From a virus: DNA of 33,301 bases. The position numbers were made by a program, and so were the translations under genes. The DNA lies in the IMG/VR virus record IMGVR_UViG_3300032087_006362, positions 1-33,301 of that record; one strand, given 5' to 3'. The notes beneath the pieces were generated by a model. The model did not search any database. It was not told the DNA's origin and saw only the letters and a program-made list of their open reading frames with translations. Every line of letters starts with the position of its first letter. Position 1 is the first letter of the stretch. Of this stretch, positions 14,528-32,754 are shown piece by piece.

Positions 14528-15529
14528 ATGTCTTATCGCCCTAGAGCCTTAAAAGTAAGTGAGGTTAAGGCAAAACTTTTAAATCCAGCATTAACTTCCC
14601 ATTTTTATGTGGAAATTGGCATACCTAATGGTCCAGGTTTTGCTGGACAAATGATTGCTATGACTGGAGAAGCATTTAATAGTGAAAAGATAAGTTTAGC
14701 ATGTTGTGATGCAGTTCTTCCTGGATCAAGTTTGGCAACAGGAGAGCAAAATAATGATTATACTGGTGTAACAGAGAGACATGTATATCGAAGAATATAT
14801 GATGATCGAATAGATCTTACTTTTTATGTTGATGCACAAAAGTATTACCCAATTCGCTTTTTTGAAGCATGGATGAAATATTGTGTAGCTGAATCCTACA
14901 ATTCAGGCCCTACTTCTCCAGGATCTCAAGGACAAAATACTTTTTACAGAATGAGATTTCCTAATGAATATAAAGCATCAACTTTAAAGGTTCATAAATT
15001 TGAAAGAAATCATGAGTCAAGGAGAAAATCTATTCAATTAGAATATGGATTTGTAAATGTATTTCCGATTTCTATAGCATCGATGCCAGTTTCTTATGAA
15101 TCTGGTTCATTACTAAAGTGTACTGTTTCTATGAATTATAGTAGATATTATTTGGTTCCGTCTGGAAGAGATCCTGATCCTATAGCACAAGATTCCCCAC
15201 AAAGTCCTGTAATAAGTGATCCAAGTAATCCAGCTTATTTCCCAACGAGTAATAATTTTGACCTGGGCAATAGTTTGTCTGATTATGCCAGAACTAATAT
15301 TTGGTCTTCTATTACTAATAATAGCCCAGAGGGGCAAGCTGGATTTAACAATTTGTCATTTACTGATAATCCAGATATAAACCTTAACTATGCTTCTGAT
15401 TTTTATAATGGTGGTTATACTGAAGAAGGACCAGCCGAACTTCAACAACTTCGATACTCAAGAAATTTAGAATCAGAACTTCGTCGTACTGGCAGACTTC
15501 GTGATAATGGTGGATTAGATAATACTTAA
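14528..15529 (+). CDS. gp54/gp19-like baseplate tail-tube protein
   Basis: This 333-residue protein has the tail-tube family pattern: 'PALTSHFYVEIGIP', 'CCDAVLPGSSLATGEQ', 'GVTERHVYRRIYDDRIDLTFYVDAQKYYPIRFFEAWMKYC' and 'YGFVNVFPISIASMPVSYESGSLLKCTVSMNYSRYYL'. These strands and the 'FPISI..MPVSY' turn occur in T4 gp19 (tube) and gp54 (tube initiator). Its position at the head of the hub operon favours a gp54-like initiator. The C-terminal 100 residues (Asn/Ser-rich, ending 'ESELRRTGRLRDNGGLDNT') are an extension. ATG 14528 is the only good start and directly abuts the minus-strand late promoter. Confidence 0.65.
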   Translation: MSYRPRALKVSEVKAKLLNPALTSHFYVEIGIPNGPGFAGQMIAMTGEAFNSEKISLACCDAVLPGSSLATGEQNNDYTGVTERHVYRRIYDDRIDLTFYVDAQKYYPIRFFEAWMKYCVAESYNSGPTSPGSQGQNTFYRMRFPNEYKASTLKVHKFERNHESRRKSIQLEYGFVNVFPISIASMPVSYESGSLLKCTVSMNYSRYYLVPSGRDPDPIAQDSPQSPVISDPSNPAYFPTSNNFDLGNSLSDYARTNIWSSITNNSPEGQAGFNNLSFTDNPDINLNYASDFYNGGYTEEGPAELQQLRYSRNLESELRRTGRLRDNGGLDNT

Positions 15530-15535
15530 TAAATA
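15528..15535 (+). promoter_or_regulatory. Late promoter for the hub operon
   Basis: AATAAATA matches the NATAAATA late consensus and overlaps the TAA stop of the previous gene (15527-15529). It lies 26 bases before the gp26 start, a usual distance. Confidence 0.65.
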
Positions 15536-15561: not shown

Positions 15562-16281
15562 ATGCCTTTACCAAAAATTGCTACACCAACTTATGAACTT
15601 GAGTTGCCTTCAAGTGGAGAGACTGTTCGATATAGACCTTTTTTAGTTAAAGAAGAAAAAGTATTAGTTATTGCTTTAGAAAGTTCTGATACAAAACAAA
15701 TAACTTCTGCAATTAAAAATGTCATTAAAAATTGCATCCTTACGAGGGGAATTAAAGTAGAAACTTTACCCACTTTTGATATTGAATATCTATTTTTAAA
15801 TATCAGAGGAAAATCTGTTGGTGAAGAAGTTGAAGTTAATATTATTTGTCCAGATGATGAAGAAACTAAAGTATCAGTAAATATTGGCCTCGATGAGATC
15901 AAAGTTCAAAAAAATGATGATCACACTAATAAAATAAAAGTAGATAAATCAATTATGATGGAAATGAAATATCCATCTCTTGATCAGTTTATCAAAAATA
16001 ATTTTGATTTTTCTGATGAATCTTCTATGGATCAATCATTTACTTTAATTTCTTCATGTATTGATAAAATTTACACTGAAGATGAGGTATGGATAGCTAA
16101 TGATGTTACTAAAAAGGAATTAAATGACTTTTTAGAATCAATGAACTCTTCACAATTTAAAGAGATTGAAAAGTTTTTTGAAACCATGCCCAAGCTATCT
16201 CATAAAATTGAAGTTACAAATCCAAAAACGAAAGTAAAAAGTGAAGTTGTTTTAGAAGGGTTAGCATCTTTTTTCGCATAG
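15562..16281 (+). CDS. 26: gp26 baseplate hub assembly protein
   Basis: The 239-residue protein begins 'MPLPKIATPTYELELPSSGE' and continues 'VRYRPFLVKEEKVLVIALES', 'NVIKNCILTRGIKVETLPTFDIEYLFLNIRGKSVGE' and 'VNIICPDDEE'. These are the signatures of gp26, a hub protein in T4 (208 residues). The pattern 'f.iEylfl.lR.ksvGe' is well preserved across T4-like phages. It is followed two bases later by a gp51-like gene and is preceded by a late promoter, so it opens the hub module. Confidence 0.9.
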   Translation: MPLPKIATPTYELELPSSGETVRYRPFLVKEEKVLVIALESSDTKQITSAIKNVIKNCILTRGIKVETLPTFDIEYLFLNIRGKSVGEEVEVNIICPDDEETKVSVNIGLDEIKVQKNDDHTNKIKVDKSIMMEMKYPSLDQFIKNNFDFSDESSMDQSFTLISSCIDKIYTEDEVWIANDVTKKELNDFLESMNSSQFKEIEKFFETMPKLSHKIEVTNPKTKVKSEVVLEGLASFFA

Positions 16282-16283
16282 GC

Positions 16284-16472
16284 ATGATCCATATGGATCT
16301 GGAGAATTATTTCCGTCTTAATTTTGCCTTGATGCAGTATCATAAATATTCTTTGACTGAACTTGAAAATATGATGCCTTGGGAACGAGACATCTATGTT
16401 GGATTATTGCAACAACATTTGGAAGAAGAACAATTGAAGCAACAGCAGCAGCAAAACAATGCCAAGTTCTAA
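16284..16472 (+). CDS. gp51-like baseplate hub assembly catalyst (62 aa)
   Basis: This small protein of 62 residues contains 'YHKYSLTELENMMPWERDIYVGLLQQHLEEE' and a Gln-rich end. The 'l.ELe.MmPWERDIYv.LL...leeE' core is found in short proteins directly after gp26 in cyanophages, annotated as gp51-like hub assembly catalysts. The same motif follows tail chaperone-like genes in other phages. ATG 16284 is used; ATG 16293 is an alternative. Its last 14 bases overlap the first tape-measure-like gene. Confidence 0.6.
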   Translation: MIHMDLENYFRLNFALMQYHKYSLTELENMMPWERDIYVGLLQQHLEEEQLKQQQQQNNAKF

Positions 16473-18966
16473 AGCAGAAAAGTTAAGAAAGGCATATGAG
16501 TTTAAACTCGGAAAGAGCTTAGTATCTAAACTTTCCGACGATCAAATTAACTTACTTTCTAAATTTTATAATTCTTTAAGTGAATCTGAACAGAGTGATA
16601 TTGATAATAAAATTTTCAAGGGGCATACTGATACTGACCTCCATGAAATGGCAGAGGCATTTTATCAAGAACAGGTAGAAAATAAGGAATCAAAAGAAAC
16701 TCCAAAAGAGACTCCAACAAAATCATCTGCGATTGTTCCATCAAATTTTTTCGGAAAAGATAGATATGAAAAATATCTTGAGGAGATTAATGCTCAAGGA
16801 ACAATAGAAGGGCATAAATTAACATCACAAGAAAGAAAAGACGCATTTAAGAGTAGAAAAAATAAAATTAATTTTCAAACTTTTGTTGATAGAGTATTAG
16901 AAAAAAAAGTTGCAACTGCATCAGTTCAAAAAAATTCAGCAGCATTTTCTCTTGGAGGTAGTGGTGCATTAGTCACTACAAATAACAATATTATTAATTC
17001 CAAAAATTTCACTCAAAATTTGATGGGAGAGGGTGGTAATTTTGAAGAAATATCTAAAAAAATAGATGAAATTATAGAATCTTTAAAAGATTCTGAAAAA
17101 CTTAAAGAAAAAAGAGAAAAGTTAAACAAAAGAAATCAAGAAAGAGAAAGAAGATCCAAGCAAGAATCTAAATTAGAGAGTGGATTTAAAAAAGTTAAAA
17201 AGGCAGTTCAAAAAGTTATTGCACCAGTAAAAGGAATTTTAGATAAAATATTTGGATTTTTATTCAATGTTTTCCTTGGAAGATTCTTTATAAAATTATT
17301 AGATTGGTTTGGCGATCCTAAAAATCAATCTAAAATAAATGCAATAGGAAGATTTTTGGGTGAAAATTGGCCAAAACTTTTGGCACTTTATATTGCTTTT
17401 GGCACATCATTTGGTAAATTTGTAAGAGGATTATTAAGACTTGTAATAAGATCAACTGTAAAACTAGTTGCTGTCACTGCAAAATTATTAGCTAAAGCAA
17501 CAGCAGGAAAAATTGGAGGTAAGTTATCAAGATTTTTAGGAAGAAATTCTAAAGGATTATCAACAGCACTTGAAGTTGGAACAATGGCTATTGGAACCCT
17601 AGCTTTATCGCAGGGAATTGAAGATTTTGGGGGTATTGATCAAGAAACACAAGGATTTTCGGGTGGTGGATTTGCTTTTCCAAAATTTAAAATGTCTCCA
17701 AAATCCAATATGTTTGGTAAAGCAAAATCTAAACCTCAAGAAGTATATAATTCTGATATAGATGGAGGATATGTAAGTGGCGAGAAAGGTATAGATAAAA
17801 TTCCTGCCATGCTTTCTGATGGTGAATTTGTGATGTCAGAAGGTGCTGTTCGAAAATATGGTGTTGATGTTCTTGAGTCAATGAATGCAGCAGGTGGTGG
17901 AACAAATAGACCAAAAATGATGAATAATGTCACATATGCTGCCGGTGGTGGTTCAATTGGATCAGGAGAAGATTTATTACATCCAAGAGCAAAAACGATA
18001 TTTAATTTATTGGTAAATGGTGGAATGTCGCCAGTCGCTGCAGGAGGAATCGTTGCAAATATTGGAACGGAGACTGGATATACTTATGATCCCACTACAA
18101 AACAAGGTGGAGGAGGTCCTGGTAGAGGATTAGCTCAGTGGGAAAAGGGTGGTAGATATGATACTGATAATATAAATCTTAAAGATTATGCCAAGAGTCA
18201 GAACAAATCCTGGGAGGATTTGACCACACAAGTGAATTTTATATTGCATGAAATGATGCATCATCCAGAGTATGTTCAAGTGAAAAAGAGAATGAATAAG
18301 GCTCAAGATATTAATGAGGCAACCAGAATATTTTTACTTGATTATGAGAAAGCAGGTACTCCACATATGGATAGACGATTAAAGGTTGCAAAACAAATTC
18401 AAGGTTCAGATTGGTTTAAATCAAAAGGAAAATCTTGGTTGGAGAAAAAATTTAAATCACAATTTTTCCCCAAGTTTTTCAGCGGAGGATTAGTTGAAGG
18501 GAAACATGTAAATATTGCTGGAGGAAACACTGGCAATCGTCCTACTGGTTCAAAATCAACTCCATCTGGTGCAGTGCGGGATCATTATAATATGAAATGG
18601 GATCCTCATATGAAAATCTGGGCTCCAAATATAAGAAAAGCCTCTGGCACCAACTCATTGCAACAAGCGAGAGAAGCAGACAATCCATATAATATTCGAT
18701 GGCCAAGAGATTATTATCCTGGTAAGAAAGCACCACCAGGACCTGGACATGTACCAGTAAAACTTGCATCAAATACGAGGTCTCAAAAAGGTCTTCCTTC
18801 GATTGCCCCACCAATGAGTTCAAATGTTGAGATTGCATATGTTCCAATAGGAGGAAATGCTTCACAAATGGGGTCGAGTGGATATGTTGGTTCTGATATT
18901 CCAACATTCTCTGCATCAACTTCTGGTATATCATCTAAAAAAGAAACATTGGGAATAAGTGTATAA
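16459..18966 (+). CDS. Tape-measure-like tail protein with tail lysozyme domain (835 aa)
   Basis: The order of regions is as follows. A charged N-terminus is followed by a long coiled coil (about 190-265). Hydrophobic helices come next ('FGFLFNVFLGRFFIKLLDWFG', 'LLALYIAFGTSFGKFVRGLLRLVI', about 270-345). A Gly-rich segment contains 'KGIDKIPAMLSDGEFVMSEGAVRKYG', a motif recurrent in tail tape-measure and hub proteins. A phage tail lysozyme domain spans about 503-650 ('LLHPRAKTIFNLLVNGGMSP', 'IVANIGTETGY' with likely catalytic E538, 'RGLAQWEKGGRYD'). The C-terminus is low-complexity. It probably spans the tail lumen and digests peptidoglycan during injection. It could be the gp29 counterpart, though that is not certain. 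It shares this architecture with the next gene. Confidence 0.7.
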   Translation: MPSSKAEKLRKAYEFKLGKSLVSKLSDDQINLLSKFYNSLSESEQSDIDNKIFKGHTDTDLHEMAEAFYQEQVENKESKETPKETPTKSSAIVPSNFFGKDRYEKYLEEINAQGTIEGHKLTSQERKDAFKSRKNKINFQTFVDRVLEKKVATASVQKNSAAFSLGGSGALVTTNNNIINSKNFTQNLMGEGGNFEEISKKIDEIIESLKDSEKLKEKREKLNKRNQERERRSKQESKLESGFKKVKKAVQKVIAPVKGILDKIFGFLFNVFLGRFFIKLLDWFGDPKNQSKINAIGRFLGENWPKLLALYIAFGTSFGKFVRGLLRLVIRSTVKLVAVTAKLLAKATAGKIGGKLSRFLGRNSKGLSTALEVGTMAIGTLALSQGIEDFGGIDQETQGFSGGGFAFPKFKMSPKSNMFGKAKSKPQEVYNSDIDGGYVSGEKGIDKIPAMLSDGEFVMSEGAVRKYGVDVLESMNAAGGGTNRPKMMNNVTYAAGGGSIGSGEDLLHPRAKTIFNLLVNGGMSPVAAGGIVANIGTETGYTYDPTTKQGGGGPGRGLAQWEKGGRYDTDNINLKDYAKSQNKSWEDLTTQVNFILHEMMHHPEYVQVKKRMNKAQDINEATRIFLLDYEKAGTPHMDRRLKVAKQIQGSDWFKSKGKSWLEKKFKSQFFPKFFSGGLVEGKHVNIAGGNTGNRPTGSKSTPSGAVRDHYNMKWDPHMKIWAPNIRKASGTNSLQQAREADNPYNIRWPRDYYPGKKAPPGPGHVPVKLASNTRSQKGLPSIAPPMSSNVEIAYVPIGGNASQMGSSGYVGSDIPTFSASTSGISSKKETLGISV

Positions 18967-18967
18967 A

Positions 18968-21919
18968 ATGGCAATCAACACTCAAAAACTCCTACCATCT
19001 AAAACAAGTCCCATTGTAAATTCATCCTCTGTTGGAATTTCGCAATCTAAAATTTCACAATATTCTTTTAATACTGGTAAAAAATCTAATAATATAGTCG
19101 AAATTAATGATAAACTAACAGTTATTCATAATTTATTGAAGGGATCTGTTGCTTTTGATAAAAAAGTAATGGATGATGAGAGAAAAGAATCTCAAGATAG
19201 TAGGAGAAAAAAGAGAGAAAAGGAGTTAGAAAAGAAAGATGAAAAGGAAAATAAAAAGGAAAATAAAAAAATAAATCTTCCAAGAATTGGTTTTTTAGAT
19301 AGAGTTAAAAATTTTATTGGAAATATTTTAATTGGTTATCTTGCTGTCCGTATGATAGATCATTTACCAAAATTGGTAGGTGCTTTTAATTTGGTTTTAA
19401 GTGTGGGTGATTTCATTACTGATTTTGGTATTGCATTTATTGATAGAATGGGTTCATTTCTCGATGCCGGATATAAAGCTTATGATGCTACAAAAGGATT
19501 CTTAAAGTTTCTTGGTGGAGATAATGCTGTAGATGCTTTTGTTGGATTTACTAATGCGGTAGGAAAACTTGTTGATGTTGCTATCATTGCTGCGATTGCA
19601 ATGTCAACAATGAATGATGATGGTGGAAGAGGTGATGTTCCTCGTGATAGGATTAGAGGTAGAGGAAAAGGAAGAAGTATAAAAGGTGGTGCAAGTTCTC
19701 AAGCAGCAAGAAGATATGCACAAAGATTTGGTAGAGATGCTGCCGTTAAAAGATTTGGTAGTGATGCTGTAAAAAGTTTAGGAGGTAAATATGGACGATC
19801 TGCAGCAACTAATCTTGCAAGACGAGGTGCTGCTAGTCTTCTTGGTAAACAGGGGTTAAGAATAGCTGTTAGAACATTAAAACCATTTGTAAGTAGAGTT
19901 CCACTGATTGGTGGTATAATGGAATTTGTATTATCATGGATAGCTGGTGATCCTGTTGGAAAGGCAGCATTTAGGGGTGTAGGTGCTGGTCTTGGAACTT
20001 GGATTGGTGGTGCTTTAGGTACTTTAATACCAGTTCCTGGGGTTGGAACTGCAATTGGTATGTTCCTTGGAGGAATGGGTGGTGCTGAACTTGGTGGCGT
20101 AATATATGATGCAATCTTTAAAGGAAAAGATGTTTCAGGAAATAATGATGTTCAAGGTCGTCAAGAAGGTGGGCCAATTACTAGAGGCAACAAAGTCCAA
20201 TCAGGACCAAGAAGAACCATAACTCAAAAGGTACAAAGAAAAAAACCTAGAAGACCATCAAAGGTAAAATTGCCAGATGTTCCTGGTAAAGATATTGTAA
20301 ATAAAGAAGAATATTATAAAATTTTTCCAAAACCAGTTATTGGAGACAATAAACCCACTGCAACAACCGCAGTAAGAGAATCTGGAAAAGAACTTTCTGA
20401 AGTTGATTATTTTGGCCCAATACTTACTATTACTTCCAAAATTACACTTGGAGAAAAACCATCGTCACAAGATTATGAAAATGCTGCTTTAGGTATATCA
20501 CGTTTACTTTCAAAAGGATTTGATGAAGGTGAATTGAGAGGTGGGTTGATGACTGCCTTTGCAAATGGAGGTCTTGTTAGTGGTGGTGCATTACCTTCTG
20601 GTTCAAGGGGAATGGGAATCACGAAATGGATAAAAAATGAATTTAGAACGGCATTGAACACCAGATTAACCTCATCATTGAAAAAGTTAAGAGGAGTAAC
20701 TGGTGGCAATGTTCCAAGTGATGTCTCTCCTTTTGCAATGGGTGCAGGTAGTGCAGGTGGATGGTATGGTGGATATCGACCACAGGAAGGGATTCAAAAA
20801 GAAATATATGAGTATTTAACTAATGAGAAGGGTTTGAGTGATAATCAGGCTCTTGGTTTGATGGCAAATATTAGTAGAGAAAGTAACTTTGTAGTAAATG
20901 TACCATCTGGAGATGATGGTGGAGCTGGTGGACTATTTCAGTGGAAAAAACCAAGGTCTGATAGAATGTCTGCTGCTGTTCCAGATTGGCAAACTAATTG
21001 GAAAGCACAAATTGATTATGCTTTAATAGAACCAGGAGAACCAGGACCACTTTATGTGTCAACTAGTTTCTCTTCCCCACAACAAGCTGCTGATTGGTGG
21101 ATGGAGAAGTGGGAAAGACCTGCCGATTTGCAAGCAGGATCGAAAAAACATCAAAGGTATTTAGCTAGCGTTCCTAAAGGACCGGATGGAAGTGCAAAAT
21201 TCAGAGCAAGAATTACAACTGGAGGTTCGGGTAGTTTTAATGTTACTCAATATTTAACGGGTGATACCACATATAGGGCAGGTCCTGGTGTTAATCCAAA
21301 TCAGTTTTACTATGATCCGGATCATGGTGGTAATAATTATCATGAACATTTTGGTTTCAATACCGTTGAGGATAAAAATAGAGCAATGCGGCACTTGAGA
21401 AATCAAGGTTGGGAAATTGGTAGTACATATCGAACAAATGATCCTGGTCTACATGGAAGCAATCTTGCTTTTGATGTTCCATTTTATAAACCAAGTGGAG
21501 GAACACAAAAAGGATATTCTGATGACACTGCAGGAGAACAAGCATTTAGTGCAGCAGTTAGAGCATCTATGGGTATGTTTCATGGAGGATCAACAGGAAA
21601 AGGTGGTCTCATATACACTCACGAAGGCGAATACATAATAGATAAAGACACTGTAAGTTTATTAGGTACAGATTTCTTTGACATTGTAAATCGAATTGAA
21701 AATGAAAGTCAACTCAAACAAAAGGCAGGTTTGTTGGTTTCAAGATTGTCTCAATTCACTACATATGATAGTAGATCTGCTAAAAAAGTAGTTGTTCCAA
21801 TTCCAAATAATCAACCATCTATGATTCCTGTGGGTGGCGATAATTCTGGAGTTATGATACCAATGTCACCAATGTCTGAAGAAAATGATGCATATAAACA
21901 ATTGTACATAGGAGCATAG
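18968..21919 (+). CDS. Second tape-measure-like tail protein with lysozyme and M15-like motifs (983 aa)
   Basis: ATG 18968 follows the upstream stop after one base; an in-frame GTG at 18959 is less likely as the start. The plan repeats that of the previous gene. A Lys/Glu coiled coil (about 55-105) is followed by hydrophobic helices ('FIGNILIGYLAVRMIDHLPKLV', 'VDVAIIAAIAM') and an Ala/Gly/Arg-rich stretch. A tail lysozyme domain spans about 610-750 ('LGLMANISRESNF' with likely catalytic E638, 'GGLFQWKKPRSDRM'). Then comes 'HEHFGF ... GLHGSNLAFDVPF' (about 787-838), a His/Asp pattern like M15 peptidases, and finally 'GEYIIDKDTVSLLG'. It probably acts in tail assembly and wall penetration. The tandem arrangement suggests duplication. 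Confidence 0.7.
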   Translation: MAINTQKLLPSKTSPIVNSSSVGISQSKISQYSFNTGKKSNNIVEINDKLTVIHNLLKGSVAFDKKVMDDERKESQDSRRKKREKELEKKDEKENKKENKKINLPRIGFLDRVKNFIGNILIGYLAVRMIDHLPKLVGAFNLVLSVGDFITDFGIAFIDRMGSFLDAGYKAYDATKGFLKFLGGDNAVDAFVGFTNAVGKLVDVAIIAAIAMSTMNDDGGRGDVPRDRIRGRGKGRSIKGGASSQAARRYAQRFGRDAAVKRFGSDAVKSLGGKYGRSAATNLARRGAASLLGKQGLRIAVRTLKPFVSRVPLIGGIMEFVLSWIAGDPVGKAAFRGVGAGLGTWIGGALGTLIPVPGVGTAIGMFLGGMGGAELGGVIYDAIFKGKDVSGNNDVQGRQEGGPITRGNKVQSGPRRTITQKVQRKKPRRPSKVKLPDVPGKDIVNKEEYYKIFPKPVIGDNKPTATTAVRESGKELSEVDYFGPILTITSKITLGEKPSSQDYENAALGISRLLSKGFDEGELRGGLMTAFANGGLVSGGALPSGSRGMGITKWIKNEFRTALNTRLTSSLKKLRGVTGGNVPSDVSPFAMGAGSAGGWYGGYRPQEGIQKEIYEYLTNEKGLSDNQALGLMANISRESNFVVNVPSGDDGGAGGLFQWKKPRSDRMSAAVPDWQTNWKAQIDYALIEPGEPGPLYVSTSFSSPQQAADWWMEKWERPADLQAGSKKHQRYLASVPKGPDGSAKFRARITTGGSGSFNVTQYLTGDTTYRAGPGVNPNQFYYDPDHGGNNYHEHFGFNTVEDKNRAMRHLRNQGWEIGSTYRTNDPGLHGSNLAFDVPFYKPSGGTQKGYSDDTAGEQAFSAAVRASMGMFHGGSTGKGGLIYTHEGEYIIDKDTVSLLGTDFFDIVNRIENESQLKQKAGLLVSRLSQFTTYDSRSAKKVVVPIPNNQPSMIPVGGDNSGVMIPMSPMSEENDAYKQLYIGA

Positions 21920-23224
21920 ATGGAAAGGGCAACTTCTAATATAAAAAAATGTACGATTATTTCAAATAAAACTAAACAAGAGGTTAGTTTATTGGGAAAA
22001 GGTGGTGTGGATAGACTTTATTATTATGAAAGCATCCTTCAAGATTCTATAAAAATTGATGTCATATTTAATGATGCTGGTAATGCAATTAATGAAAAAT
22101 CTGTTGTAGAGGGCCTACCTTTGGTTGGAACTGAAGAAGTTGATGTTGAAATTGAAGATGTTAATCAAAGATCATTAAAGGTGAAAATGTATGTTAATAA
22201 AGTTACTCCTTTAGGTGAAGATAGTATGAAATCAAAAGTGAATATAACTTTAGTATCTGATGAATTTATTACAAATGAGGTAGGAAAATCTAGAGTTAAT
22301 AAAAGATTTGATGGAAAAATTTCAGATCATATTCAAAAATTGATGATAGATAATTTAAAATCCAAAAAACAATTGAATATTGAAGAAACTGAAAATAATT
22401 ATAATTTTATAGGAAATAATCGCAAACCAATATATGTTATAAATTGGTTATCAAAAAAATCCATTCCTACGAAGGATGGTAAAAAGGGACAAAGTGCTGG
22501 ATTTTTATGGTTTGAAACATCAAATGGTTACAATTTCAAATCAATTGATAGTTTATTTGCTCAAAAGCAAAAAAAGTCTTATATTTTTACCAATACTACA
22601 GATAAAAATGGTAAAATTCCTGCAGGATATGATGGATCAATTTTACAACATAATCCTGATAATAGAATTAATGCCCAAGAAAAATTTAAAATGGGTACAT
22701 ATGGAACAAGAATAGTTTTATTTGATCCATTTAATTGCTATTATGAAGTTTCTAAACAAACTGCAGATGAAACAAAAGGAGGGACTAAACTTGCAGCAAA
22801 AGATTTACCAAAACTCAATGAAAAGTTTGGAACGATGGATGACTTTACAAGAACAACATATATGCTTATAGATAAAGGTACTTTACCAACAGGAGATAGT
22901 GAAGGCCAAATTGAAAAATCAAAAGAACAAAATTTTGATTCTAAAAGTATTTTAAATCAATCTATTCGTCGTTATAATCAAATTTTTAGTGCAAAAGAAG
23001 AAGTTACAATTGATGCCGATTATTCTTTACATGCAGGTGATGCCATCTTTATTGATACGCCAAGTATTCAAAAAGACACTGGATCAGATGTAAATAGGGA
23101 ATTTGGGGGTCTATATATTATATCAGATCTATGTCATTTCATATCACCCAAAGCATCATACACAAAACTGAATTTGATTAGAGATTCATTCGGAAGAAAA
23201 GGTAATCACACAACATCTGTATAA
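21920..23224 (+). CDS. 27: gp27-like baseplate hub protein
   Basis: The 434-residue protein begins immediately after the previous stop. It shows hub-protein features: 'VEIEDVNQRSLKVKMYVNKVTPLGEDSMKSKVNITLVSDEFI', 'NYNFIGNNRKPIYVINWLSKKSIP', 'GFLWFETSNGYNFKSIDSLF' and 'YSLHAGDAIFIDTPSI...REFGGLYIISDLCH'. These correspond to the T4 gp27 ring-forming hub (391 residues) and related VgrG/gp27 folds. A torus of gp27 trimers binds gp5 and forms the end of the tube. It precedes a CP12-like micro-gene and gp5, giving the gp27-gp5 order expected for the hub. Confidence 0.8.
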   Translation: MERATSNIKKCTIISNKTKQEVSLLGKGGVDRLYYYESILQDSIKIDVIFNDAGNAINEKSVVEGLPLVGTEEVDVEIEDVNQRSLKVKMYVNKVTPLGEDSMKSKVNITLVSDEFITNEVGKSRVNKRFDGKISDHIQKLMIDNLKSKKQLNIEETENNYNFIGNNRKPIYVINWLSKKSIPTKDGKKGQSAGFLWFETSNGYNFKSIDSLFAQKQKKSYIFTNTTDKNGKIPAGYDGSILQHNPDNRINAQEKFKMGTYGTRIVLFDPFNCYYEVSKQTADETKGGTKLAAKDLPKLNEKFGTMDDFTRTTYMLIDKGTLPTGDSEGQIEKSKEQNFDSKSILNQSIRRYNQIFSAKEEVTIDADYSLHAGDAIFIDTPSIQKDTGSDVNREFGGLYIISDLCHFISPKASYTKLNLIRDSFGRKGNHTTSV

Positions 23225-23226
23225 AA

Positions 23227-23445
23227 ATGGAAAAAAAATCTTTACAGCAACATATTAATGACGACAAAGACATGCTTGATGATTCAACTTTGTCGCCACA
23301 AATGCGTCGTCATGTGGAAGATGAGTTAGATCATCTGGAACTTTATCAAGCAAATCATCCAGATGATGATCATGACCCAACTCCTCTTGAAATATACTGT
23401 GATGAAAATCCAGATGCGGACGAATGCAGAATATATGAGGATTGA
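23227..23445 (+). CDS. CP12-like C-terminal domain micro-protein (72 aa)
   Basis: This acidic 72-residue protein has a helical N-terminus ('QHINDDKDMLDDSTLSPQMR', then 'HVEDELDHLELYQANHP') and the C-terminus 'TPLEIYCDENPDADECRIYED'-like, with C58 and C67 in a C-x8-C loop. That ending matches the C-terminal region of cyanobacterial CP12 very closely ('..YC.ENP.A.ECRVY(E/D)D'), the part that docks onto GAPDH when the cysteines are disulfide bonded. The N-terminal CP12 cysteine pair is absent. The gene sits between gp27-like and gp5-like hub genes, two bases after one and four bases before the other, so it would be expressed late. The function is unknown, and metabolic regulation is an inference. 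Confidence 0.7.
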   Translation: MEKKSLQQHINDDKDMLDDSTLSPQMRRHVEDELDHLELYQANHPDDDHDPTPLEIYCDENPDADECRIYED

Positions 23446-23449
23446 TTGA

Positions 23450-26101
23450 ATGGAAGGGGGTGCATTATTTAATCCTGGATTTTTGGGTGGCAACTTTTTA
23501 TGGTGGGTAGGCCAAGTTGCCCCTGATGAAACGTGGAGAGAAAATATAAAATCAGAAAAATTTGATAATCCACAAGATGTTAAAGGATGGGGATATCGAT
23601 ATAAAGTAAGAATCATCGGATTGCATGATCAAGGTGAGGAATCAATTCCTTCAGATCAATTGCCTTGGGCTCAGGTCATGTATCCTATTACTGCTGGTGG
23701 TGGTCAAGGTGGTTCATTTCAAACACCTGGAATTAAGCAAGGTAATTTTGTATTCGGATTTTTCTTGGATGGTCAGGATCAACAAGTTCCTGTTATTATG
23801 GGTGTTCTTGGTAATAACACACAAACATCCTTAAGTTTAACCAATTCTTCTCGTGGTGGAAAAAACTTTACACCCCAGAGTGGATATGCTGGTTATGAAG
23901 AAACAAGACGAGTAGCTGATAGTAATCTTTCTTCTCAACAACCAAAACAAGGAGATGCTCCAACAAAAGAAACACCAACTGCAACTAGTCAGAGTGCTGC
24001 ATCAGATAAGAAAAAAGGTGACAAGTTAAAACAAAAGCACCCTTTATCTTGTCCTGATGAACAAGAAAATTCTGACATGAAAAGAGTGCAAACTGCTCTT
24101 AAGGAACTAACACAAAAAATACAGAATATTCAAAAATCTATTAGTGAATGGGTACATGCAGCATCTCTTCCAATAAAAGAGAGACTTTTGGAAGCTCAAG
24201 AAAGAATATCAAAAGTAATCGGTGAAGCAACTGAACTTATAGGTAGTGCCATGAAAGGCATTATGACTAGAGTTCAAAACTTTGTTACCGATCAATATAA
24301 TAAAACATTAAAACCATTATTAAAACAAGCACCTGGATCATTTGGTATTGATTTGATAAAATTAAAGATACAAGGTCTTGAAAAAATTGCTTGTCAGTTT
24401 AATGCAATTTACAATGGATTAAAAGATTTAATTGGCGGACTTTTAGGAAATTCTCAAAAAAATAAATCAAATAGATCAAAAAGCAAACCTAAAAAATCAG
24501 CAAATAGTTATAGAAATGCTACAACTCAAGCATCAAATATTTTACCAGATGCAAGGATAATTAATCCTAATGATGATCTATTAAATCAAGGTGCTGATGA
24601 TGGTCAAGAAAGTATTTTAGGAGATGTTGTTGAAGATATTTTAGAACAATTGGAGGTGGAACCGATTACAAATCCTGGTTTTACAATTCCAGTTCCAATT
24701 TGTTCAGCAGAAGAATTAGTTGCTGGTGTTTTGGGTGCCCATATTAATGATATTATGACTGTATTTGATGAAGCAGTAAGACCTGTAGTAGATCTTGTAA
24801 TTGATTCGGTTGATGAAGCAGATTCTTCGGAAGTTTCTGCTGTTAAATCCGCTGTCAATAATTTAACAACCGTGAATAGGTTTGCATATACAATTACTCA
24901 GGAAAACGTTACTAATGCAAAAAATTCTGGGGATTTAACTAGAAGTGTATCATCAATTCTTGCTGATAAAGGATTCGGCATGAACCCTGAAGATGCTACT
25001 CAAGCAACTTCATATTTTCTATCCAATAATTGGTATGGTGGATTAGCTGTATCGGGTGCACTTAGTGTTGCACGTAATTCACCCAGAAATCCAGGAGTTA
25101 TTAAATATTCCAATTCTCTTGCTGCATCTAGAGGTAATGCTGATGAAACATTTATAAACATGACAGCCATCAATTTACTTTCAAGAAATAATTCAGAAAG
25201 TGATGTTGATTCTTCTGTTAGTTCTTTAAGATCTGTTTTACCAATTGCAAGAGCACAAAGAGCTGCAAGAGTTGCTGCAGCTGAAGCGGCCGCAGCAACA
25301 ACTCAAGGAGGAGTTTCTCAGACAACACCCCCAATCCCAAGTGTTTACACTCTTGCACTTAATATGTTATCTTCTGGAGTTTTGAGTTCTACTGCAGATG
25401 CTGGAGCAATTACTGGAAATGTTACTGGATTAGATCCAGATACGGCGGCATTGGCATCTTCTTCCTCAATATTACTTTCTAACATATATTCCAACACCCC
25501 AGTTTCAACTAGAGGTACTTTTTCTTCATTACCTTCAGAACCTCAAACAAATAGTTTAGTTAGTGCTGCTGCTTCGATTGCTGGTGGAAATTTTGCTGAT
25601 GGATTTAAAGCACTTTCTGGTTCATTTGGTCTCAATTCACGAATTGCAGGAGAAGTTGGGGATGTTTTTGGAGCAATTGATTCTGGGAATACTGGTATAT
25701 TGACATATTTGACTGGAATTCTTTCTAGATCATATCCACCAATTTTAAATTCTGTATTAAAAAATGGAACACAATTTGATTTTGCAAACCCTGATGCAGT
25801 TCAAGATCTTTCAAAACTTGTTGGTTTGAAATTTGATATTGGTGGGGCATTAGGATTCATTAGTTCCATCAATGAATTTTTTGCATGTGATCCAAAACCA
25901 AAATGTTCTCCTAATGACAGTCATACATTACAGGAAGGTGGAAGTGGAACACCTGGCAAAGAAAAACCAAATTTACTGAACGCAGCACAAAAAGCATATG
26001 AGGAATCACTCCGGTTATCAACTGGTGGCGGTCTTGGTTTAATTGGTGCTGGTACAGAACAAGAATCAAGAAAATATAGTGTTCCTTCAGATGTAGCCTA
26101 A
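23450..26101 (+). CDS. 5: gp5-like baseplate hub protein, lysozyme domain not recognised
   Basis: The 883-residue protein has a gp5-type OB-fold at about 20-125: 'NFLWWVGQVAPDETW', 'GWGYRYKVRIIGLHDQGEESIPSDQLPWAQVMYPITAGGGQGGSFQTPGIKQGNFVFGFFLDGQDQQVPVIMGVLGN'. This matches the N-terminal domain of T4 gp5. In T4 a lysozyme domain follows; here the next part is a Lys/Gln helical region (about 195-330) and then a long Ser/Ala/Asn-rich segment with 'NARNSPRNPGVIKYSNSL'-like repeats and no visible T4 lysozyme motif. Nor is a gp5 beta-helix C-terminus evident; a separate beta-rich gene follows at 27314. The lysozyme function may have moved to the two tape-measure-like proteins. Confidence 0.8.
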   Translation: MEGGALFNPGFLGGNFLWWVGQVAPDETWRENIKSEKFDNPQDVKGWGYRYKVRIIGLHDQGEESIPSDQLPWAQVMYPITAGGGQGGSFQTPGIKQGNFVFGFFLDGQDQQVPVIMGVLGNNTQTSLSLTNSSRGGKNFTPQSGYAGYEETRRVADSNLSSQQPKQGDAPTKETPTATSQSAASDKKKGDKLKQKHPLSCPDEQENSDMKRVQTALKELTQKIQNIQKSISEWVHAASLPIKERLLEAQERISKVIGEATELIGSAMKGIMTRVQNFVTDQYNKTLKPLLKQAPGSFGIDLIKLKIQGLEKIACQFNAIYNGLKDLIGGLLGNSQKNKSNRSKSKPKKSANSYRNATTQASNILPDARIINPNDDLLNQGADDGQESILGDVVEDILEQLEVEPITNPGFTIPVPICSAEELVAGVLGAHINDIMTVFDEAVRPVVDLVIDSVDEADSSEVSAVKSAVNNLTTVNRFAYTITQENVTNAKNSGDLTRSVSSILADKGFGMNPEDATQATSYFLSNNWYGGLAVSGALSVARNSPRNPGVIKYSNSLAASRGNADETFINMTAINLLSRNNSESDVDSSVSSLRSVLPIARAQRAARVAAAEAAAATTQGGVSQTTPPIPSVYTLALNMLSSGVLSSTADAGAITGNVTGLDPDTAALASSSSILLSNIYSNTPVSTRGTFSSLPSEPQTNSLVSAAASIAGGNFADGFKALSGSFGLNSRIAGEVGDVFGAIDSGNTGILTYLTGILSRSYPPILNSVLKNGTQFDFANPDAVQDLSKLVGLKFDIGGALGFISSINEFFACDPKPKCSPNDSHTLQEGGSGTPGKEKPNLLNAAQKAYEESLRLSTGGGLGLIGAGTEQESRKYSVPSDVA

Positions 26102-26102
26102 A

Positions 26103-27287
26103 ATGCCAATAGTACCTCTTTCAAATAATAGTATTAGAGTTGGTTACATTAGTCCTTCTATGGGTCTAATAAATGGTCTCACTGTAGAAGAAGCAAATGC
26201 ATATGCACAATCCAATCCAGGAACAGTTTTTATTTTTGTAGATGGTGATCGTGATATTAATTACTTAACTATCGAACAAGTTAATAATCTGACTTCTGCC
26301 GATTTATTGAGAAAAGAATCTTGCAATACTGACCCAATTCCTTGCGGACCACCAGAAATTAATGTTATTGGTGGTGGTGGAATTGGGGCATCGATAAATC
26401 CTATAATAGATTCTAGTGGAACTATAATAGCAGTGGACATTGTTAATGGTGGGTTTGGATATGATTCTAAACCAAAACTTCAAGTTGTGGATGCTTGTGA
26501 AAATGGTTCTGGTGCTGTTTTAGATCCTATATTAAATGATGATGGATCTATTGGAAATGTAATCGTAGAGGATGGTGGTACAGGATATTTACCGCCACCT
26601 GCTGCACCAACAGATCCTTCATACCCTGTCACATTGCAATTAGATGAAATTCTTGTGAAAGATCCTGGAATTAATTATGATTGTTCAAATGATGAATTAG
26701 TAATTGAACCAAGAAATGGAACCAAATTATCATATCAATGCAATCCTTTTGGTAAAATAAAATCTATAAATGTTGAGGTTGGCGGTTATTTTTCGGAACT
26801 ACCAAATATTTTCTTAAGAAGTAATACTGGTGTGAATGCTTCATTCATTCCGGTATTCAAAGTTGTTAGAGATCCACAAGAAATTGTTGGATTGGAAGCA
26901 GTTCAAGTTGTACAAGTTCTTGATCTAGTTGGATTAACTATCAAAGGTTATCGTGATGGTCGTCCTTTCTATGGTAATGTTTTCTTTGAAAATGGTATTA
27001 AATATGCTGGTACATCAGAATCTACTACGACATCAAGAATACGAGTTTATGACACAAAACTTGAAAGTATTAATCAAACGTCGAATCTTGAAAGAATAAC
27101 AGAAGCTGCATTATCTAGAGTTCAAACAGATCTTCAAGGAGCAGAAGCAGAGAATCCAAGATATGGATATACAGATCCTACATTTTCATCAGCACCAGCA
27201 CCTTCTCCTTCTCCAGCACCTTCTCCAGCACCTTCTCCCTCACCTTCACCACCATCTGACGGGGGAGGATTTAGTGGCGGTTACTAA
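26103..27287 (+). CDS. Virion structural protein with GGxGY repeats and a Pro-Ser-Ala tail
   Basis: The 394-residue protein has four strand-turn units: 'AVDIVNGGFGYDSKP', 'NVIVEDGGTGYLPPP', 'EILVKDPGINYDCSN' and 'SINVEVGGYFSELPNIFLRS'. Such V-x-GG-x-GY-x-x-P repeats are common in phage tail and neck proteins and probably build a beta-structure. It then has 'LVGLTIKGYRDGRPFYGNVFFENGIKYAG', helical residues, and a proline-rich end of AP/SP repeats. It begins one base after the gp5-like stop. The late promoter at 27286-27293 overlaps its stop. The exact virion position is not clear; a spike or baseplate protein is likely. Confidence 0.65.
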   Translation: MPIVPLSNNSIRVGYISPSMGLINGLTVEEANAYAQSNPGTVFIFVDGDRDINYLTIEQVNNLTSADLLRKESCNTDPIPCGPPEINVIGGGGIGASINPIIDSSGTIIAVDIVNGGFGYDSKPKLQVVDACENGSGAVLDPILNDDGSIGNVIVEDGGTGYLPPPAAPTDPSYPVTLQLDEILVKDPGINYDCSNDELVIEPRNGTKLSYQCNPFGKIKSINVEVGGYFSELPNIFLRSNTGVNASFIPVFKVVRDPQEIVGLEAVQVVQVLDLVGLTIKGYRDGRPFYGNVFFENGIKYAGTSESTTTSRIRVYDTKLESINQTSNLERITEAALSRVQTDLQGAEAENPRYGYTDPTFSSAPAPSPSPAPSPAPSPSPSPPSDGGGFSGGY

Positions 27288-27293
27288 TAAATA
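27286..27293 (+). promoter_or_regulatory. Late promoter for spike and fibre genes
   Basis: AATAAATA matches the NATAAATA late consensus, overlaps the TAA of the previous gene and lies 20 bases before ATG 27314. Confidence 0.65.
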
Positions 27294-29316: not shown

Positions 29317-32300
29317 ATGGCACAAACACCAATTGGAACTCCTGAATTTATAGATCCTAATTTACCACCTATAGTTGATGATGGATTTACTGCCTCAAAT
29401 ATCAATGCATCTGGAATTATCACTGCAACAACTTTTGTTGGTGATGATATCACAATTGGAACTGGTGTTACTATTAATGACTCTGGAATACATGCAACAG
29501 GTATTGTAACCGCAACTTCTTTTGTTGGTGATGGCTCTAATATAACAGGAGTTACTGCAACATCTGTTGGTGATGATATTACAATTGGAACTGGTGTTAC
29601 TATTAATGACTCTGGAATACATGCAACAGGAGTCATCACTGCAACTTCTTTTGTTGGTGATGATATTACAATTGGAACTGGTGTTACTATTAATGACTCT
29701 GGAATACATGTAACAGGAGTCATCACTGCAACAACTTTTGTTGGTGATGGTTCTGGACTTACAAATGCTGGAGCATTTTCGTATGATAACACCACAAATG
29801 TCTTTACAACAAATCTAACATCATTACCAGATAGAGATACTGGTTCTGATAATTTCTTTGTAGGGGCAAATGCAGGAAATCGTATTACAACGGGTTCTCA
29901 TAATATAGGAATAGGAAAATCTGCCGGAAATCAACTTACTACTGGATGCTTCAATAACTTTATTGGTTTTTGTGCAGGACATAACACCACCTGTGGGTTT
30001 TGGAATAACTTCTTTGGTTGTTATGCAGGACACTACAACACCAGTGGTTGTTGGAATAACTTCCTTGGTTGTAATGCAGGAAGAAAAAACACCACCGGAT
30101 GTTTCAATAACTTCTTTAGTGGTGGTGCAGGATACAACAACACCACTGGAAGTCATAATAACTTTTTTGGATATAGTGCAGGATGTTTTAATAATGCAAG
30201 TGACAATAACTTCTTTGGTCAGTGTGCAGGATACAAAAACACTAGCGGAGCTTGTAATAACTTCCTTGGAACATTTGCAGGACAATGCAACACCACTGGA
30301 GGACGAAATAACTTCCTTGGAGCATTTGCAGGAAGATGCAACACCTGTGGATCCTATAATAACTTCATTGGTCAGTGTGCAGGACATTTCAGTTGTAGTG
30401 GATTTTACAATAACTTCATTGGTGATAGGGCAGGATATTGCAACACTTCTGGATCTAATAATAACTTCTTTGGATTTTTGGCAGGATGTAGTAATACCTC
30501 CGGATCTTATAATAACTTCTTTGGACATGATGCAGGATACAAAAACACCTCTGGGTGTTATAATAACTTCTTTGGACGATGTGCAGGATACTGCAACACC
30601 GATACTAATGGCTCAGTAGCAATTGGACAATCGGCAGGATATCATAATGATGGTAATGATAATGTCTTCTTGGGAAGAAATACTGGTTTTAGTGAAAATG
30701 TTAGATCCCCATCTGACCTCATTACGGGTTCTAATAACTTTATATCGGGTGTTGGAGCTGGCTCCTCATTAACCACTGGAAATCAGAATATTTTCTTGGG
30801 AGTTTGTGCAGGATTTGCACATACCACTAGAGATAGAAATGTTTTTATTGGATATCATGCTGGATGTAATGCTTTAAAGGCATCACACATTGTTGGTATA
30901 GGAAACTCTGTTGGTAAGAATTTAACATTGACGTGTGGGTCGGGAACTTATACTATTCCTGACCACTCAAGTGGTAGTGTTTTGATTGGTAGTAATGCTG
31001 GAGGAGGAACAAATTATACTAGATATGATATTTTTATAGGAGAATGTGCTGGATATGGGCAGAATGGGTGCAATAATAGTAACGTAGTTATTGGATACCA
31101 TGCAGGTAGATGTTTAACTTTTGGAAGCAATAATATTTTTCTTGGAAGATATGCAGGCAAGAGCAACACCGGTCAAAGTTATAATTTTTATGCTGGAGCT
31201 TGTGCAGGATGTACTGGGACTGGGGCATCTTATAATGTTATGATTGGGTGGGCCGCAGGGTGTTCAAACAGTAGTGGTGATGATCACATTTTTCTTGGAA
31301 GAAGTTCAGGATGTAAAAATAGTACTGGACAGGCCAATACTTTTCTTGGCAATTTTGCAGGACGTTATAACACCACCGGAAGTTATAATATTTTTATAGG
31401 TAAGTGTGCAGGATGTAAAAACACCATTGCAAGCCATAATATCTTTTTAGGTTGTCAGACAGGATGGTGCAATACCGAAGGATGTAATAATACTTTCCTT
31501 GGTTGTTTGGCAGGATGTAGTAACACTACTGGAAATTATAATAACTTCATTGGTGCAGGTGCAGGATACAACAACACCACTGGAAGTTACAATAACTTCT
31601 TTGGTAGATGTGCAGGACAATCAAACACTACTGCATGTTATAATAACTACTTTGGAGCATGTGCAGGCTGCGGAGGCCTTGGTGCAAATAATAATAACTT
31701 CTTTGGAAGAAGTACGGGACGTGTAAACTGTGGAAGTGGTAATAATTTCTTCGGATATTACGCAGGACGATGCAATACCAATGGACGCTGTAATAACTTC
31801 CTTGGTAGCCAGGCAGGACAATACAACACCACTGGAAATTATAACAACTTCATTGGACTACTTGCAGGATATTGCAATACTTCTGGATCTTATAATAACT
31901 TCATTGGTTCTTGTGCAGGAAGATGCAACACCGATGGATGTTGGAATAACTTTTTTGGACATTGTGCAGGATACCTGAGTTGTACTGGAGATCACAATAA
32001 CTTCTTTGGATTTCAGGCAGGATGCAGCAATAGTGCTGGAAATGATAATAACTTCATTGGTAGGAATGCAGGAAGATCCAACACCTCTGGACATTGCAAT
32101 AACTTCTTTGGTGAAGATGCAGGATACTTCAATAGCGTTGGCGATTATAATACCTTCATTGGTTATCGTGCAGGATTCGTTAACACCACTGGATGTCATA
32201 ATAACTTCATTGGTTATCGGGCAGGATACAACAACAGCACTGGAGAAAATAATGTTTCAATAGGCCAAAGTGCAGGATGTTTAGTAACCGGTTCCAATAA

Positions 32301-32754
32301 TATTATGATTGGTTGTGGAACTGGTATTGGTGTGAATGGAATGGGAGACCATACTGGTAGTGATACGATCTATATGGGTAATACTAGTCATACAAAGGCT
32401 TGTATTCAAATTGCATGGACAACAAACTCTGATATTCGTAACAAGTGTATTTGGGGTAATGTTTCACATGGAAGAGATTTCTTGAGAAATGTAAATCCAA
32501 TTAAGTATTCATTTAAGAGTAGAGATACAGATGAACTTATTGATGAAAAAATGAGATATGGTTTCTGTGCTCAAGAAATTTTATCTCTTGAACTTCCAGA
32601 ACAACCAGTTATTACTAATGTAGATAATGCAGATAATTATGGTGTCACCCATGAGTATTTGATTCCTATCTTGGTAAATGCTATTAAAGAACTTGATGCA
32701 GAAAACAAAGCAATTCTTGCTCGCTTGGAGGCCCTGGAGAACGAAAGCCCTTGA
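29317..32754 (+). CDS. Repeat-rich Cys/Asn tail fibre with peptidase S74 chaperone
   Basis: The 1145-residue protein has an N-terminal attachment segment and three copies of a 29-residue repeat ('ITIGTGVTINDSGIHATG', about residues 41-142). About 45 copies of a 17-residue repeat with consensus NNF(F/L)GxxAGxxN(T/S)(T/S)Gxx follow (about 204-990). The C-terminus is a peptidase S74 domain (about 1035-1140: 'TNSDIRNKCIWG', 'FLRNVNPIKYSFKSRDTDE', 'RYGFCAQEI', 'YLIPILVNAIKELDAENKAI'). S74 domains fold trimeric fibres and are cut off in front of the Ser in 'NSD'; here that would be between N1037 and S1038. Most repeats contain cysteines in fixed positions, such as GxCAG, YCN and SGC. The start has AGAGGA upstream. 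It is the likely host-recognition fibre. Confidence 0.9.
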   Translation: MAQTPIGTPEFIDPNLPPIVDDGFTASNINASGIITATTFVGDDITIGTGVTINDSGIHATGIVTATSFVGDGSNITGVTATSVGDDITIGTGVTINDSGIHATGVITATSFVGDDITIGTGVTINDSGIHVTGVITATTFVGDGSGLTNAGAFSYDNTTNVFTTNLTSLPDRDTGSDNFFVGANAGNRITTGSHNIGIGKSAGNQLTTGCFNNFIGFCAGHNTTCGFWNNFFGCYAGHYNTSGCWNNFLGCNAGRKNTTGCFNNFFSGGAGYNNTTGSHNNFFGYSAGCFNNASDNNFFGQCAGYKNTSGACNNFLGTFAGQCNTTGGRNNFLGAFAGRCNTCGSYNNFIGQCAGHFSCSGFYNNFIGDRAGYCNTSGSNNNFFGFLAGCSNTSGSYNNFFGHDAGYKNTSGCYNNFFGRCAGYCNTDTNGSVAIGQSAGYHNDGNDNVFLGRNTGFSENVRSPSDLITGSNNFISGVGAGSSLTTGNQNIFLGVCAGFAHTTRDRNVFIGYHAGCNALKASHIVGIGNSVGKNLTLTCGSGTYTIPDHSSGSVLIGSNAGGGTNYTRYDIFIGECAGYGQNGCNNSNVVIGYHAGRCLTFGSNNIFLGRYAGKSNTGQSYNFYAGACAGCTGTGASYNVMIGWAAGCSNSSGDDHIFLGRSSGCKNSTGQANTFLGNFAGRYNTTGSYNIFIGKCAGCKNTIASHNIFLGCQTGWCNTEGCNNTFLGCLAGCSNTTGNYNNFIGAGAGYNNTTGSYNNFFGRCAGQSNTTACYNNYFGACAGCGGLGANNNNFFGRSTGRVNCGSGNNFFGYYAGRCNTNGRCNNFLGSQAGQYNTTGNYNNFIGLLAGYCNTSGSYNNFIGSCAGRCNTDGCWNNFFGHCAGYLSCTGDHNNFFGFQAGCSNSAGNDNNFIGRNAGRSNTSGHCNNFFGEDAGYFNSVGDYNTFIGYRAGFVNTTGCHNNFIGYRAGYNNSTGENNVSIGQSAGCLVTGSNNIMIGCGTGIGVNGMGDHTGSDTIYMGNTSHTKACIQIAWTTNSDIRNKCIWGNVSHGRDFLRNVNPIKYSFKSRDTDELIDEKMRYGFCAQEILSLELPEQPVITNVDNADNYGVTHEYLIPILVNAIKELDAENKAILARLEALENESP
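29437..29742 (+). repeat. Three near-identical 87-base coding repeats
   Basis: Copies begin at about 29437, 29566 and 29653 (spacings 129 and 87, the first with a 42-base insertion). They share runs such as ACTGGTGTTACTATTAATGA and CTCTGGAATACATG. They encode the 29-residue fibre repeats and are similar enough for recombination or slippage. Confidence 0.85.
29930..32290 (+). repeat. About 45 tandem 51-base coding repeats
   Basis: AATAAC...TTTGG blocks recur mainly every 51 bases; four successive starts at 30004, 30055, 30106 and 30157 are 51 apart. The repeats encode the 17-residue fibre units. They are diverged at codon level, so this is a protein-level array, not a CRISPR array. Confidence 0.9.

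Follow-up and report, generated by a model that had tools for sequence, protein, structure and literature searches.

A cyanophage CP12 gene inside the baseplate hub operon: family, genomic site and putative late expression

CP12 proteins dock on GAPDH, recruit PRK and lower CO2 fixation, and in the accepted model the CP12 encoded by phages diverts carbon during genome replication. The gene has been reported in 15 of 16 cyanomyoviruses, where it lies "near gp5" (Sullivan 2010, PMC3037559), and its product is described as a carbon metabolic regulator (T4-GC337 / PHROG 627; Sullivan 2010, Thompson 2011). In the hosts, the classical CP12 form is missing from the marine picoplanktonic group according to a review (PMC3906501). 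The DNA analysed here, called the window, is a stretch of 33,301 nucleotides (positions 1 to 33,301 of IMG/VR record IMGVR_UViG_3300032087_006362) which carries a cp12 gene in its baseplate hub operon. For this gene the family membership, the conservation over the full length, the site, the tight packing and the positions of promoter motifs were established directly. It very probably serves a T4-like marine cyanophage (Kyanoviridae type) as an auxiliary metabolic gene, and its CP12 would inhibit the host Calvin cycle and be expressed late from the hub operon without being a part of the tail.

The cp12 gene and its product

The gene and the two parts of its product are the following.

23227–23445, + strand: cp12, encoding a CP12 of 72 residues (basis: Pfam PF02672, PHROG 627 and same-site orthologues)
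23242–23355, + strand: predicted N-terminal two-helix hairpin, residues 6-43 (AlphaFold2), without the canonical cysteine pair or AWD_VEEL
23398–23427, + strand: C58-x8-C67 loop, the GAPDH-binding end, with a conserved cysteine pair and aligning with the CP12 chains of PDB entries 6gfo, 3zdf and 3b1j

The translation of this ORF is MEKKSLQQHINDDKDMLDDSTLSPQMRRHVEDELDHLELYQANHPDDDHDPTPLEIYCDENPDADECRIYED. A first-pass annotation had described it as a CP12-like micro-protein, and the profile search bore this out: the Pfam CP12 profile (PF02672) matched with 51.2 bits (E=2.1e-13), more than twice its gathering cut-off of 22.7 bits, and residues 6-71 aligned with positions 5-70 of 70, which is about the whole profile. 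PHROG 627 matched at 5e-26, and a phmmer search of the PDB ranked cyanobacterial CP12 chains first (6gfo, 3zdf, 6kez, 3qv1, 3b1j, 2lj9 and 5nmu); a search with the NCBIfam profiles gave no match. The ORF is not a chance one since same-site proteins, identical or 75-88% identical to its product, are found in 80 IMG/VR contigs and the gene is under strong purifying selection (median dN/dS 0.06; 530 pairs, 72 distinct coding sequences). Among 50,697 phage records searched by tblastn, 372 contained a relative, each of them from a cyanophage or a "marine" virus. The CP12 of SynMITS9220M01 shares 80.6% identity with that of the window, and 13 other aligned phage CP12s share 44-69%. Judged from its sequence the gene is a real ORF encoding a genuine cyanophage CP12, with the family, length, cysteine pair and core of the regulator already described. 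It is one more member of a known set of phage auxiliary metabolic genes, and most of the surprise voiced in the first-pass annotation goes.

The loop (C58-DENPDADE-C67) has a central proline, and its cysteine pair is kept in 101 of 101 phage loci, which represent 73 distinct sequences, as well as in all 73 marine host sequences. Moreover, 14 of the last 21 residues are identical to Thermosynechococcus CP12 in the PDB phmmer alignment, and the proposed resemblance to the GAPDH-binding end of CP12 is therefore confirmed by both the pair and the alignment. The absence of N-terminal cysteines had also been noted correctly, C58 and C67 being the only cysteines of the protein. No further cysteine was found in the 101 phage loci or the 73 marine host sequences, and the AWD of the AWD_VEEL core occurs in none of either (0/101 and 0/73). 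The window CP12 thus has PF02672 and the GAPDH-binding C-terminal end in common with the canonical CP12 of S. elongatus, Thermosynechococcus and plants, whereas it has neither of the canonical N/C-subtype features, the N-terminal cysteine pair and the AWD_VEE(L) core.

This absence had led to the suggestion of a GAPDH-only inhibitor, in which the C-terminal end is kept, the PRK-binding half has decayed and no bridging to PRK takes place. The lack of the N-terminal pair and of AWD_VEEL in every phage sequence agrees with this, as does the fact that the strongest PDB similarity lies at the C-terminal end, but the suggestion is weakened by several observations and we consider it unlikely. The CP12s of marine Synechococcus, Prochlorococcus and their relatives align end to end with the phage protein, and in 73 of 73 (55 distinct) the C-terminal cysteine pair is the only one and AWD is lacking. 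This is the CP12-C(M) type, exemplified by Prochlorococcus PMM0220, which also ends in C-x8-C. Because all these host proteins lack the same features, the phage carries, as far as sequences tell, the local host type of CP12, and the missing pair does not point to a design restricted to GAPDH. In addition the N-terminal half is not decayed; it is strongly constrained, with 24 of 46 residues invariant in the window clade against 8 of 26 in the C-terminal half. The invariant stretches are QQHINDD, SP, RRH, DEL and HLE, and H9, D13, H29, E33 and L37 are common to host and phage CP12s. Finally, a review (PMC9406205) states that the ternary complex is also formed by CP12s without the N-terminal pair, namely in Galdieria and S. 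elongatus 7942.

The AlphaFold2 model of the window CP12 predicts three helices resembling those of CP12, at residues 6-17, 24-43 and 53-60 (mean pLDDT 90). Its best Foldseek match, 6gfo_F, is a full-length CP12 on GAPDH, and this weak match (E 0.1, prob 0.82) is consistent with a CP12 fold for the model. Host and phage proteins differ in the turn, which is SPxxRRH in the phages and of AKAxGN type in the hosts. In a tree of 63 sequences one branch (99/98) parts host from phage CP12s, although the alignment has 72 columns and long branches meet there; the tree supports this split only, and an origin in host or phage is beyond the reach of 72 columns.

The hub operon as a genomic site

In the window cp12 belongs to a string of closely packed genes.

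15562–16281, + strand: gp26-like baseplate hub gene, the first of the operon (PHROG 150, 3.7e-80)
16284–16472, + strand: gp51-like hub assembly catalyst (PHROG 634, 1.4e-28)
16459–18966, + strand: tail lysozyme / tape-measure-like protein (Pfam Phage_lysozyme2, 2.1e-29)
18959–21919, + strand: second tail lysozyme-like protein (Pfam Phage_lysozyme2, 2.8e-18)
21920–23224, + strand: gp27-like tail protein (T4-GC15), upstream neighbour of cp12 (PHROG 350 tail protein, 4.6e-82)
23437–23440, + strand: GAGG in the last cp12 codons, a candidate Shine-Dalgarno sequence for gp5 (from the sequence)
23450–26101, + strand: gp5 baseplate hub / tail lysozyme homologue, downstream neighbour of cp12 (Pfam Gp5_OB, 3.5e-7; PHROG 33098, 4.5e-90)
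26103–27287, + strand: gp5-associated structural protein (gp5b), the end of the tight string (PHROG 32965, 5.4e-73)

Successive genes of the series gp26-gp51-lysozyme-lysozyme-GC15-cp12-gp5-gp5b are spaced by -14 to +4 nt. The start of cp12 is separated by 2 nt from the stop of the upstream gene, and its end by 4 nt from the ATG of gp5; through the GAGG gp5 may be translationally coupled to it. Among 101 loci, cp12 overlaps the upstream gene by 4 nt in 42 and the downstream gene by 1 nt (stop/start) in 52. The first-pass annotation had placed it between gp27 and gp5 in the hub operon; the operon and the gp5 neighbour stand, while the upstream gene is better described as the T4-GC15 / PHROG 350 tail protein, which is gp27-like. 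The T4-GC15 name is that used in the records of S-ShM2, Syn33 and P-HM2.

The site is the same in most cyanomyoviruses. In 17 of the 21 named genomes inspected cp12 directly follows the gene for the T4-GC15 tail protein and precedes gp5; some of the 17 also carry cpeT, tRNAs or oxygenase genes inserted there. It lies off the hub in the other four: in S-TIM5, near plastocyanin, transaldolase and PTOX; in P-HM2, 3 nt before talC and with nrdC, td and phoH nearby; and in S-SRM01 and P-SSM2. To avoid bias, a second scan was seeded with the GC15 neighbour and not with CP12, a locus being informative when its contig does not end at the site. There, cp12 directly follows GC15 in 70 of 93 informative loci (gp5 then follows on the contig in 66), and GC15 is followed directly by gp5, without cp12, in 23; GC15 also adjoins gp5 in P-HM2. 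Since 70 loci are occupied and 23 empty, the GC15-gp5 junction can be regarded as a cargo site. A cyanophage cp12 auxiliary metabolic gene is expected to have orthologues in T4-like cyanophages in the psbA or the gp5 region, and the 372 phage records with a relative and the GC15-cp12-gp5 order of the loci inspected agree with this. The view that cyanophage cp12 belongs to metabolic clusters holds for P-HM2 (cp12-talC) and S-TIM5, but cp12 is most often found at the hub, a location already reported in 2010.

At five of the loci cpeT, 2OG-Fe(II) oxygenase genes or tRNAs have been inserted in this junction as well, which makes it a hot spot for cargo within a structural operon. Phage-type CP12 was also met at six loci on contigs of Nonlabens xiamenensis, Euryarchaeota and Rhodopirellula assemblies (one of them NZ_RMVE01000006.1). 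On several of these CP12 adjoins GC15/gp5 homologues, and they look like cyanophage contigs present through contamination or mis-binning.

Another reading, in part proposed earlier, makes the protein a redox clip or an assembly factor that the baseplate hub has borrowed and that may be packaged. Although the stop/start coupling to the hub genes is tight and the site conserved, this is very improbable. Hubs without cp12 exist (the 23 loci and P-HM2) and cp12 exists away from hubs (P-HM2, S-TIM5, S-SRM01 and P-SSM2), so cp12 is not a needed hub part; other cargo also occupies the same junction. Packaging is likewise not supported. In the S-SZBM1 virion proteome (PMC9146016, 30 proteins) SSZBM1_65, encoded immediately upstream of cp12, was found with three peptides, whereas this single mass spectrometry dataset (Table 1) does not list the cp12 product SSZBM1_64, for which two tryptic peptides of ordinary length (12 and 13 residues) would be expected. 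As the protein is small and acidic, its absence from one virion dataset is only moderate evidence against packaging. A structural protein would be required with the hub and found in it or in the virion, and CP12 is missing from some hubs and from this proteome.

Other genes of the window deserve mention. A protein of 612 residues (170–2008) combines a radical SAM domain with a SPASM domain at its C-terminal end, both behind about 350 residues without Pfam match, an unusual enzyme for a phage. The gene at 2005–3897, overlapping it by 4 nt, encodes 630 residues that match FkbM-type methyltransferases twice and TPR weakly, and the two perhaps form a modification cassette. At 29317–32754 a protein of 1145 residues contains many short Cys-rich NNFFG-AG-x-NTSG-like repeats, which leave long open frames on both strands; it had no Pfam match at E 0.001 and probably represents a tail fibre whose end is chaperone-like.

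Promoter motifs and expression timing

The late motif of cyanophages is NATAAATA (PMC2984593), and two sites in the window frame the operon.

15528–15535, + strand: AATAAATA, late-promoter-like motif at -34 of gp26, an exact match to NATAAATA
27286–27293, + strand: AATAAATA, the next late-like motif, at -28 of ORF 27314 (motif scan)

On the + strand the exact motif occurs at 15528, once inside gp51 (16341) and then at 27286; none lies between 16341 and 27286 and hence none directly before cp12. As NATAAATA-type sites are no more frequent across the window than expected by chance, only the motif position was used. A sigma70 scan near cp12 gave nothing above chance. The motif at 15528 presumably marks the start of a late operon holding cp12. 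The window clade differs in this from other cyanophage cp12 genes, since its cp12 closely adjoins or overlaps the neighbouring genes and no separate promoter could be found for it; P-HM2 has instead a cp12-talC unit.

The orthologues comprise 221 distinct hub leaders, in which the late-type -10 motif N[ACT]TAAATA was sought at -48 to -22. It is present in 0-1 of 83 tight loci (gap ≤8 nt), in 31 of 49 leaders of 9-20 nt and in 88 of 89 distinct leaders above 20 nt. Most of the latter have it at -30 to -33, roughly 31 nt ahead of cp12. Among random + strand sites about 1% have the motif, and among shuffled leaders 4%. The hub leaders are related by descent, so their counts do not amount to independent trials; nevertheless the late-type motif precedes cp12 in at least nine named phages that belong to different types (S-SZBM1, S-RIM8, S-RSM4, Syn9, S-8S29, Syn33, ACG-2014d, S-TIM4 and S-CAM4). 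In Syn9, where cp12 has CTAAATA at -34, the motif is found only at cp12 and a fibre gene among 12 genes tested, and in S-RSM4 at gp26, cp12 and one more among 11. Host-like (sigma70-like) promoters are scarce at hub cp12 genes except where the gap exceeds 45 nt (9/13; background 3.75%). The class of "nonhub" leaders holds at least one hub copy by annotation, that of S-ShM2, and no conclusion is drawn from it. The earlier proposal that the protein is made late gains support from this promoter architecture, that is the motif before gp26 and the 88 of 89 leaders, and at the level of sequence late expression is plausible.

The P-HM2 cp12 has a late-like motif at -32, overlapping a TTGACA-type promoter, in a region where 10 of 61 genes have the motif. 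It belongs nevertheless to the middle cluster and is among the most highly expressed genes (PMC5082946), so a late-like motif alone does not fix the timing. This published timing concerns a copy outside the hub, in another context. The literature that could be read gave no expression or timing data for a hub-located cp12, and PMC10976474 does not mention the gene. In S-TIM4 a perfect TTGACA-17-TATAAT stands just upstream of the late-type motif before cp12, with overlapping versions in S-ShM2 and P-HM2; these are candidate dual middle/late promoters.

Function and meaning of a hub-located CP12

Returning to the auxiliary metabolic gene reading, we infer enzyme binding, PRK binding and late timing of the window CP12 along the following lines. 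The oxidised C58-C67 loop would dock in the active site of host Gap2 (GAPDH) in the manner seen in solved structures of CP12 with GAPDH. The N-terminal helical hairpin probably recruits PRK or another partner, as is presumed for the CP12 of the host. Holding down the Calvin cycle would reduce CO2 fixation and spare NADPH and ATP, and NADPH and pentose phosphates could then be used for phage nucleotides. The hub operon would be a place for cp12 expression and not a mark of tail membership; in the window clade, where no separate promoter was found for the gene, its transcription would start at the late promoter ahead of gp26 and its product would be made late.

A strictly late CP12 would fit poorly with an early flux switch. 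It is conceivable, if the less probable case, that the hub-located late CP12 has another job after replication, such as keeping Calvin enzymes inactive during virion assembly, the flux switch of mid-infection being left to the cp12-talC copies. The late-type motif that precedes almost every leadered hub cp12, the embedding in a late operon in the window clade and the P-HM2 copy, a middle gene in a talC/nrdC/td/phoH region, speak for this; sigma70-like promoters at wide-gap hub loci (gap above 45 nt) and some others speak against it and suggest mixed timing. Only tentatively, phage CP12 could have two regulatory forms: a mid-infection one (cp12-talC or host-like promoter) and a hub-embedded late one with gp55-type promoters, which in the window clade is stop/start-fused into the hub operon and would tie Calvin-cycle inhibition to virion assembly.

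In the readable literature the expression basis of the accepted model is P-HM2, in which cp12 lies outside the hub, whereas most cyanomyovirus cp12 genes found here are in the hub operon and usually behind a late-type motif. If hub cp12 is truly late, the accepted model of carbon diversion would need a second phase; if it is not, the late motif would have to be read differently in cyanophages.
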